Assembly (NCBI GenBank): GCA_944321715.1
Contig: CALUMJ010000014.1
Span: forward strand, 1 to 51,643
DNA: 51,643 nucleotides
Direction: 5' to 3'
Origin: an uncultured Muribaculaceae bacterium
GTDB lineage: Bacteria > Bacteroidota > Bacteroidia > Bacteroidales > Muribaculaceae
The notes beneath the pieces are model-generated. The model was given only the letters and a program-made list of their open reading frames with translations. It searched no databases and had not been told where the DNA came from. The position numbers were made by a program, and so were the translations under genes. Every line of letters starts with the position of its first letter. Positions within the stretch are counted from its first letter, which is position 1. Shown piece by piece: positions 24,150 to 25,786 of the stretch.

Positions 24150-24201
24150 CCGAAAATCCATCTCAAGCCATTGAACAAAATATTCAAAACAGTTTCTTAT
24201 T
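24150..24201. repeat. Partial copy of the element at 25563-25786
   Basis: CCGAAAATCCATCTCAAGCC ATTGAACAAAATATTCAAAACAGTTTCTTA here aligns with 25723-25771 at most positions, where it forms the inner part of the right arm of the palindromic element. Terminal AGGCTGTGCC sequence is missing, so this is a fragment. It overlaps the last bases of the radical SAM gene. Confidence 0.55.
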
Positions 24202-25255
24202 TTGTAGTTGAATCCATGAGTTTATTGTAGGAGCATCCTTTCATCTTTCCGCATTCGTCGCGAAGGTGCATGGCTCCGCCACGGCAAACATTCCAGACTT
24301 TGCATGTTGAACATTCATCTCGCTTCATCCACTCTCTGCCACGGAACCGCTGGAAACGGTTGTTCCATACCTCCATAAAGCTGTCGTGATAGATGTTGCC
24401 CTGGTCAAATTTGCTTCTGATGCTCAAACAGCCGGAAATGGCACCATCATATCTCACCGAAGCTATATTGATGCCTGCGCCGCAGAAGAAAGGATAATCC
24501 CTAACCTCCATTTCATAATTGCCCAGATAGCCTTCGCAAGAATATGACACACAGATGTCACTTTTGGACCGCTCCGCCTTGATAAAGTCCATCAAATCTC
24601 GGAATTGTTCAGACGACAGCAGCAGCTCCGCATCATTCGCCGCCCTGCCTATCGGAAACACTGTAAAGAGCCGCCAGTGCGTCACGCCTAAAGTCAACAG
24701 GAAATCTTTGAAATGAGGCAAGGTGGAAAAGTTACGCTTATTGACACAGGTAATCACATCCCATGTGATGTCAGAGTGTGCCAGTGCTTGGATAGCACCC
24801 ACGGCTTTGCTGAAACTGTTCTTATTTCCGCGCATCCAATTATGTTCTTCCTCAAAACCGTCCAAACTGATGGCAATGGTTTTCAATCCAGCATCTGTCA
24901 GTTGTCTTAACTTCTCTACATCGAGCAGCATACCATTCGATACCATCCCCCAAACGAATCCTCTGCGGGTAATCTCTTTCCCACATTCTATGATGTCTTT
25001 TCTGACAAGCGGTTCACCACCCGTCGTGACAATCATAATCTTCGCAGGGCTTTTCTCCAACGCTATTTCATCAAGAACCCTCGCAAAGTTGGCAAACGGC
25101 ATGTCCTCGGGCATGTCATCTTTCCGACAATCGCTGCCGCAATGCCGACAGTTCAAGTTACAGCGCAGGGTACATTCCCAAAACACCTGCTGCAACAGGT
25201 GGCGTTGAGTCCTGGATTCAACGAATTCTTCTATCGTCATTCTCATTTGGTGCAT
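24197..25255 (-). CDS. Radical SAM/SPASM peptide maturase (candidate RiPP enzyme)
   Basis: A 352-residue radical SAM enzyme. The 4Fe-4S motif CNLNCRHC places ligands at Cys32, Cys36 and Cys39, with extra cysteines at 28 and 43. VTTGGEPL and ISLDGFEEEHN are typical SAM-barrel motifs. The C-terminal third is a SPASM domain: CGAGINIASVRYDGAISGCLSIRSK, then ECSTCKVWNVCRGG and CGKMKGC, supplying auxiliary cluster ligands. SPASM enzymes mostly modify ribosomal peptides by C-S, C-C or related crosslinks. It starts 13 bases after a small gene encoding a Cys/Tyr/Pro repeat peptide, its probable substrate. It is not a PqqE or AnSME by context. The overall GC and codon pattern (CGG, CTT, AAA) differs slightly from the flanking genes. 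Confidence 0.88.
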   Translation of the reverse strand: MHQMRMTIEEFVESRTQRHLLQQVFWECTLRCNLNCRHCGSDCRKDDMPEDMPFANFARVLDEIALEKSPAKIMIVTTGGEPLVRKDIIECGKEITRRGFVWGMVSNGMLLDVEKLRQLTDAGLKTIAISLDGFEEEHNWMRGNKNSFSKAVGAIQALAHSDITWDVITCVNKRNFSTLPHFKDFLLTLGVTHWRLFTVFPIGRAANDAELLLSSEQFRDLMDFIKAERSKSDICVSYSCEGYLGNYEMEVRDYPFFCGAGINIASVRYDGAISGCLSIRSKFDQGNIYHDSFMEVWNNRFQRFRGREWMKRDECSTCKVWNVCRGGAMHLRDECGKMKGCSYNKLMDSTTK

Positions 25256-25268
25256 TTGCTTCTGTCCA

Positions 25269-25517
25269 TCAATCCTTATGGAAGAGTCGCGTGAAGATAG
25301 TTTTTAACAGATTTTTCCACTTCTTGCCTGTTGATTCAGTTTCCATGGCAGGCGGCGGTGGTGGGCCATATACGCATCCTATAGGCTCATCAATCAGCTC
25401 TCTTTCTTCATCCTCCCTAACAGGTGGTGGACCGTACACGCATTCCATAGGCTCATTAATAAAGTCAGATGGGTCGTGAAATTTGTGCGTGTGTTTGTTT
25501 TCAGAATCGTCTTTCAT
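25269..25517 (-). CDS. Candidate RiPP precursor with two CVYGPP repeats
   Basis: An 82-residue peptide without a signal sequence. Residues 19-33 and 41-55 are two copies of a unit of the form (F/L)-I-(N/D)-E-P-x-x-C-V-Y-G-P-P-P, with Cys26 and Cys48 separated by 22 residues. Between them lies an acidic linker (VREDEERE); a basic amphipathic stretch (GKKWKNLLKTIFTRLF) ends the protein. The direct neighbour downstream on the same strand is a radical SAM/SPASM enzyme, 13 bases away. Repeated short cores with conserved Cys and Tyr next to a SPASM protein are the normal architecture of a multi-core RiPP precursor. I recall YGPP-rich small proteins in Bacteroidetes but know of no characterised product. 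Confidence 0.75.
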   Translation of the reverse strand: MKDDSENKHTHKFHDPSDFINEPMECVYGPPPVREDEERELIDEPIGCVYGPPPPPAMETESTGKKWKNLLKTIFTRLFHKD

Positions 25518-25562: not shown

Positions 25563-25786
25563 AGGCTGTGCCGTAAAAACTTAGAAACTATTTTGATTTT
25601 ACATAAATGATTTTATGTGAAGTTCCTTGTCCATTTTTTGAGCGTGCATTCGACCGTTTTTGATTGTTTCTTTCGACGTTCGGTTCACTAAATTTACTCA
25701 AAAAAAACAATCAAAACCGACTCGAAAAATACATCTTAAACCATTGAACAAAAAAGCAAAACAGTTTCTTAATTACGGCACAGCCT
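25563..25786. repeat. 224-base palindromic MITE-like element (AGGCTGTGCCGTAA ends)
   Basis: The gap between the precursor and thioredoxin holds one element. Ends AGGCTGTGCCGTAA (25563-25576) and TTACGGCACAGCCT (25773-25786) are perfect 14-base inverted repeats, extended inward by TTAGAAACTATTTTG versus the inverse of CAAAACAGTTTCTTAA. The centre contains a second inverted pair (CCGTTTTTGATTGTTTCT near 25658 with AAAAACAATCAAAACCG near 25704). No coding potential. A fragment of the right arm recurs at 24150-24201 on the other side of the radical SAM operon. Confidence 0.75.

Follow-up and report, generated by a model that had tools for sequence, protein, structure and literature searches.

Does a radical SAM enzyme with a SPASM domain, encoded in an uncultured Muribaculaceae bacterium, modify the small peptide whose gene precedes its own and, if so, at which residues and by what reaction? 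The two genes lie on a contig of 51,643 nucleotides (CALUMJ010000014.1), the whole of which is referred to here as the window. The original prediction, made from the DNA letters, saw in the pair a candidate undescribed system for a ribosomally made peptide, in which each CVYGPP unit is a core modified at Cys and/or Tyr.

The gene pair and its surroundings

The predicted arrangement was confirmed from the ORFs: an 82-residue peptide with two EPxxCVYGPPP units lies 13 bases ahead of the radical SAM/SPASM gene on the same strand, with the units, and thus Cys26 and Cys48, spaced 22 residues apart; the tyrosines are at positions 28 and 50 (Table 1). The C-x3-C-x2-C motif and the SPASM cysteines expected of the enzyme were present, except that the usual sixth SPASM Cys is replaced by Ala. 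No protease, transporter or RRE gene was found among the adjacent genes, as predicted. The flanking genes were identified by profile scans as encoding a PAP2/beta-barrel protein, a prokaryotic diacylglycerol kinase and a thioredoxin, and a DnaE-like ORF was also recognized beside the pair by reading the ORF list. The peptide itself (computed unmodified mass 9531.6 Da) had no match among the NCBIfam families and none above cut-off in Pfam, and lacked a lipobox; its basic C-terminus could plausibly form an amphipathic helix.

Table 1. Features of the peptide and enzyme genes in the window
Feature	Position	Strand	Remarks
Substrate peptide gene, two CVYGPPP cores	25269..25517	-	82 aa; candidate substrate
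Radical SAM/SPASM enzyme gene, TIGR04133 (rSAM_w_lipo)	24197..25255	-	352 aa; PF04055, PF13186; proposed splicease-like core modifier
Core 1, C26-V-Y28-G-P-P-P32	25422..25442	-	Sequence, repeat and codon comparison
Core 2, C48-V-Y50-G-P-P-P54	25356..25376	-	Sequence, repeat and codon comparison
Basic C-terminus (residues 65-82), which may form an amphipathic membrane-binding helix	25272..25325	-	Sequence
C32-x3-C36-x2-C39 (binds SAM cluster), then HCGS signature (38-41)	25139..25162	-	Enzyme alignment
SPASM region, Cys 258, 276, 315, 318, 324, 341; Ala328 in place of the sixth SPASM Cys	24233..24484	-	

A 38-nt direct repeat, with copies that are 84 % identical and spaced by 66 nt, encodes the two units. 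The seven codons of the CVYGPPP copies showed four synonymous and no amino acid differences, and the other seven codons compared showed four amino acid changes, a pattern that would fit selection on the core. A degenerate DNA pattern for CVYGPP matched two sites in the 2.8-Mb assembly (92.9 % complete), both of them in this gene, and the reversed control matched none. There was no sign of further X-Tyr-Gly substrates in the same genome by a DNA pattern for YGPP, which matched 13 sites, fewer than the 34 of the reversed control. Relatives of the peptide were sought by sequence in 295 genomes of the order at E ≤ 1, and none of the matches in the 53 genomes listed was convincing: only the window's own genome gave a match below 1e-3, the next best E value being 0.008, and the weak matches (L002-L030) were left out of the analysis. 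A separate search of the genome contigs found no relatives of the peptide either.

A MITE-like repeat of about 190 bp, with the ends AGAAACTGTTTTG...CAAAACAGTTTCT, occurs at positions 25580-25774 and 24153-24202 of the window, and has 43 matches in the genome, of which about 25 (including the window copy) are near full length. The repeat brackets the cassette, with the full copy immediately before the peptide gene and the solo end immediately after the radical SAM gene. An empty site without the cassette was not found, since the neighbouring diacylglycerol kinase gene is kept in only two of nine genomes of the genus.

Enzyme family TIGR04133

The enzyme matched NCBIfam family TIGR04133 over residues 11-346 with 501.4 bits (cut-off 425). 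Among 149 sampled genomes of the order, 32 had a TIGR04133 match above the cut-off, and proteins matching the window enzyme at E ≤ 1e-40 were found in 27 of 198 genomes of the same family by rank. TIGR04133 genes are also annotated on plasmids, in Parabacteroides distasonis and Treponema saccharophilum, where they sit beside genes annotated as 'radical SAM-associated putative lipoprotein'; the P. distasonis partner (WP_005853865.1) carries the peptide EIPCEYGSPHANF. The system is therefore undescribed in part only: no paper on the function of TIGR04133 was found by literature searches, whose reach did not extend to a 2022 splicease survey, whereas the family has been named by NCBI, without an assigned function, and is paired there with the lipoprotein family TIGR04134. 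The enzymes most similar to that of the window were those of loci L063 (61 % identity), L062 (60 %), L064 (59 %) and L070 (56 %).

Three cysteines (Cys43, Cys170 and Cys240, window numbering) are conserved in TIGR04133 and specific to it. At the sixth SPASM Cys site the window enzyme has CRGGA and a Nostoc enzyme of family TIGR04103 has CRGGC. The three extra cysteines and the loss of the sixth SPASM Cys suggest an altered auxiliary cluster.

A YGxP motif in the neighbouring genes

The neighbours of TIGR04133 genes were compared in 61 loci, comprising 30 from the profile survey of the order (window included), 28 from the family search (a second copy of the window was dropped from these) and three from plasmids. 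As the neighbour on either side we took the longest ORF adjacent on the same strand, whether or not it held a motif. In the 52 loci with an upstream neighbour ORF, the commonest gapped three-residue pattern was YG.P (41 loci), followed by C.YG (17), and the best shuffled pattern reached nine. When both sides were considered, YG.P or YGP occurred in a directly adjacent same-strand ORF in 56 of the 61 loci, the window peptide with its two YGPP included. Among the others, YGxP was found one gene further out in L035 and L047; L085 has CMYGTGP, L051 has QYG alone, in a secreted protein encoded downstream, and no YG motif was present within the stretch read in L042. Opposite-strand ORFs of the same loci, used as a control, contained 14 YG.P, in 10 of the loci, over a total of 161,066 residues.

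Of seven enzymes scoring just below the TIGR04133 cut-off, six had partners with ACYGxP and the seventh lay at a contig end. No adjacent YGxP gene was found in five loci of other SPASM enzymes parsed in the same way (L181-L184 and L188), the one exception being in L182, where a 54-aa ORF with YGxP lies at a distance of about 1 kb from the enzyme gene; three more (L185-L187) could not be parsed. The co-occurrence of motif peptides with SPASM genes across genomes, proposed with the original prediction as a check on it, was thus strong, and the family is linked to YGxP-bearing neighbours. We infer that the neighbour is the substrate of the enzyme.

Constant and variable residues of the motif

The neighbours yielded 109 motif instances, which were selected by YGxP or YGP and include about 10 ORFs that look like chance occurrences. 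Pro at +3 was near-constant (97 of 109), and the residue X before Tyr varied (V 38, M 18, E 11, K 10, C 9, L 7), so that only Tyr, Gly and Pro can be required by the enzyme, to judge from these alignments. Cys was the commonest residue at -2, where it occurred in 23 instances, and was found at -1 in nine; 77 had Cys at neither position. The proposal that the core is modified at Cys and/or Tyr is thus upheld for Tyr-Gly, which is constant, and weakened for Cys, which is optional. The conserved core Cys that serves as thioether donor in sactipeptides and ranthipeptides was not found across the family. It is kept in the window peptide (twice) and in the CVYGPPP peptides of L062, L063 and L070, in which Cys possibly has a role of its own. 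The motifs of the L064 peptide (VEDVYGPP, VEVVYGPP, AEGVYGPP and IEDVYGPP) are all free of Cys.

In several of the lipoproteins of L054-L060 (e.g. FQACYGTPQD), the apparent lipobox Cys is the residue that precedes Tyr-Gly. Splicing at such sites would change the lipidated residue.

Diversity of the partners and recognition

It had been predicted that either the first residues of the peptide or its helix tail act as the recognition part. This was not borne out, because, after masking of the motif, no match at E < 1e-3 was found in the set of 89 ORFs for the window peptide or for those of L062, L063 and L070, nor among these four, despite their related enzymes. The L062 and L063 peptides have a hydrophobic C-terminal stretch where that of the window is basic and amphipathic. 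(Single-linkage clustering was used for singletons only, since one of its groups took in 61 of the 89 ORFs, probably because of their signal peptides and simple sequence.) The motif is the sole common denominator of the partners and is therefore probably itself the recognition element, rather than a leader or tail.

Other partners included a TIGR04134 lipoprotein in L034 (100 bits, cut-off 39.8) and coiled-coil-like lipoproteins. Exported-looking partners directly downstream of the TIGR04133 gene were also observed, with an acyl-carrier domain (PF00550) in L076, L079 and L088 and a TonB C-terminal domain (PF03544) in L074, in each case combined with YGPP/YGAP motifs. The acyl-carrier domains of L079 and L088 have a DSL-type site.

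Comparison with PlpXY and other SPASM systems

According to two reports (PMC10533398, PMC11002830), the splicease PlpXY excises tyramine at X-Tyr-Gly and tolerates varied X; a splice tag derived from PlpA2 (Table 1 of PMC10533398) reads ...RPLYGLPI and so contains YGxP. PMC11002830 also places PlpX in IPR026482 and describes Nif11 or nitrile-hydratase leaders and a truncated RRE partner, PlpY. The window pair resembles PlpXY in combining a radical SAM and SPASM enzyme with an adjacent precursor in which X-Tyr-Gly, often in several copies, is present (Val-Tyr-Gly, twice, in the window), and YGxP occurs in both.

For comparison with IPR026482, which we take to be TIGR04103 and the family of PlpX, 80 cyanobacterial TIGR04103 loci were sampled that are related to a Nostoc locus whose Nif11 precursor ends in LYGLPPELF. 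YG was present in Nif11/NHLP precursors in 76 of the 80 loci, and in the tail of 118 of 125 Nif11/NHLP-type ORFs (GY control, 18 of 125). At the 198 sites in these precursors, X was mostly Leu (86) or Met (52), and Pro at +2 or +3 occurred in 32. Eleven enzyme positions (40, 41, 169, 194, 205, 242, 247, 248, 252, 288 and 330, window numbering), including 40-41 of HCGS, W194, E248 and R252, were the same in at least 93 % of the 61 TIGR04133 and at least 15 of 17 TIGR04103 enzymes, and in fewer than three of eight other SPASM proteins.

In other respects the two systems differ. The window enzyme scored 133.7 bits against TIGR04103, far below the cut-off of 725 and slightly below its scores against TIGR04053, NirJ2 and AhbD (138-140 bits), and has one SPASM Cys fewer. 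No PlpY-like RRE gene lies beside the pair, and the peptide has no Nif11/NHLP leader (no Pfam family above cut-off). On the TIGR04133 side, the +3 Pro is near-constant and the substrates would be membrane-associated proteins of several folds. Because of the subclass score, the RRE partner and the leader type, the window pair was not classed as a member of the splicease family, yet it may work like one. A quick tree search with 66 rows (30 of the 61 family enzymes, the seven below the cut-off, 17 TIGR04103 enzymes and 12 others) left TIGR04133 poorly placed relative to TIGR04103 (SH-aLRT 29), a GDL-motif family being nearer TIGR04103. The 17 TIGR04103 enzymes in this tree were 16 picked from the 80 loci and a Nostoc plasmid gene, ten branches were long, and NirJ and AhbC/D were left out.

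Within its own family, the window pair resembles the TIGR04133/TIGR04134 pairing, in that its enzyme is a member and a small YGxP protein is encoded upstream of the radical SAM gene in the same order. It differs in that the partner is not a lipoprotein, lacks a TIGR04134 match and has two CVYGPPP cores and a putative basic C-terminal helix. TIGR04134 had no matches in the window's own genome, and its control likewise had none anywhere. The GDL-motif enzymes with DUF1843 partners (TIGR03913), represented by two loci only (L095 and L177), have a related SPASM enzyme and differ in partner family as well as in their position nearer TIGR04103. In the Azospirillum locus (L177:826-1038) the DUF1843 partner carries RPYGPAM, and the chemistry of GDL-motif enzymes may also take place at X-Tyr-Gly. 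On an Agathobacter rectalis plasmid (L093:3713-3928), an unannotated 35-aa ORF ending in GPVMYGTGVRM precedes a radical SAM gene directly, and is a candidate X-Tyr-Gly system in a Firmicute. The Agathobacter enzyme and that of L181 both scored highest against TIGR04103, followed by TIGR03913, TIGR04133 and AhbD; the upstream neighbour of the L181 enzyme has no YG. The maturases of ranthipeptides, sactipeptides and mycofactocin (PapB, StsB and MftC) share the radical SAM and SPASM architecture, but the window enzyme scored lower against their profiles (71.5, 77.9 and 119.6 bits, respectively) and the TIGR04133 motifs do not conserve the Cys on which thioether chemistry depends.

Proposed reaction and alternatives

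Tyramine splicing by the TIGR04133 enzyme appears, with slightly better than an even chance, to be the best explanation. The two genes would then form a minimal, leader-free, splicease-like modification cassette, whose enzyme would read the short x-Tyr-Gly-x-Pro motif and have the Tyr-Gly backbone as its site of action. Each Val-Tyr-Gly would give up the equivalent of one tyramine (C8H9NO, about 135 Da) and the chain would be rejoined, converting Val27 and Val49 into alpha-keto-beta-homovaline residues. The formula of the lost unit corresponds to 135.07 Da, and the value given in PMC10533398 is 135.0757. Each C-[keto-Val]-G-P-P-P of the product would hold an electrophilic alpha-ketoamide, and the product, having lost about 270 Da overall, might be anchored by its C-terminal helix to the inner side of the membrane. 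A role as a membrane-held electrophile or protease inhibitor is speculation, the latter being possible because spliceotide products are described as protease inhibitors in PMC11117315, which cites Scott et al. (2022) for this. The loss of 2 Da per repeat named with the original prediction would fit a crosslink, and the X-Tyr-Gly precedent would predict about 135 Da.

Splicing accords with the linkage of the family to YG.P or YGP, with Pro at +3 as the sole near-constant residue besides the selected Tyr and Gly, with the need of PlpXY for X-Tyr-Gly with varied X (PMC10533398 and PMC11002830) and with the purifying pattern on the core codons. The YG of the TIGR04103-locus precursors, the 11 common enzyme positions, and the VMYGTG and RPYGPA found beside two other related SPASM enzymes point the same way. 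Set against these are the low TIGR04103 score, exceeded by those for TIGR04053, NirJ2 and AhbD, the weak tree support with the GDL family nearer TIGR04103, the lack of a PlpY-like RRE gene and of a Nif11/NHLP leader, and the L181 neighbour without YG. Moreover, X includes Glu, Lys and Asp where TIGR04103 precursors have mostly Leu or Met, and with one SPASM Cys short and three family-specific Cys the cluster chemistry may differ. Another radical chemistry at the same motif, in which Tyr (e.g. its beta-carbon), Gly or Pro is modified or Tyr and Pro are linked and tyramine is kept, would better accommodate the +3 Pro that is mostly missing in TIGR04103 precursors, the different SPASM Cys pattern and the failure of the tree to place TIGR04133 as sister to TIGR04103. 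It nevertheless seems unlikely, given that splicing is the one characterized X-Tyr-Gly chemistry found in print (PMC10533398 and PMC11002830) and that the 11 positions are held in common with TIGR04103.

A crosslink, thioether or other, from Cys26 and Cys48 to Tyr or a neighbouring residue, as in sactipeptides and ranthipeptides and with 2 Da lost per repeat, would explain why -2 is most often Cys and why this Cys recurs in the peptides of the window, L062, L063 and L070. It is improbable in view of the 77 instances with Cys at neither position, among them those beside the closely similar L064 enzyme, and of the CYGTP lipoproteins, in which Cys looks like the lipidated residue. As the main reaction of the family, a Cys-Tyr crosslink was rejected because Cys is not conserved. 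That the peptide stays unmodified, the motif serving just as a docking site or a membrane-proximal element while the enzyme acts on something else, is very improbable: the neighbours are indeed very diverse and mostly membrane-anchored, and no product is known, but the motif is the sole feature that they share and its copies in the window appear to be under purifying selection.

Implications for the family

A broader reading, which we put forward tentatively, is that TIGR04133 is a leader- and RRE-independent protein splicease that uses a five-residue x-Y-G-x-P tag and installs reactive ketoamides on membrane-anchored proteins of many folds. The substrates would then possibly range over lipoproteins, coiled coils, proteins with acyl-carrier and TonB C-terminal domains and tail-anchored peptides, and the hosts might comprise Bacteroidales and some other bacteria. 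The window peptide could represent a double-site form, in which the thiol of the Cys at -2 might mask the ketoamide reversibly or act with it. Part of such an extension of spliceases may already be covered by the 2022 survey of Scott et al.

If this is true, the orphan family TIGR04133 would gain a concrete chemistry, the removal of about 135 Da at Tyr-Gly, and backbone splicing would no longer be confined to leader-guided peptide natural products but would reach ordinary membrane proteins of gut-type bacteria. An enzyme that needs only a five-residue tag, and neither leader nor RRE, would also be a tool for introducing ketoamide handles or protease-inhibitor warheads.
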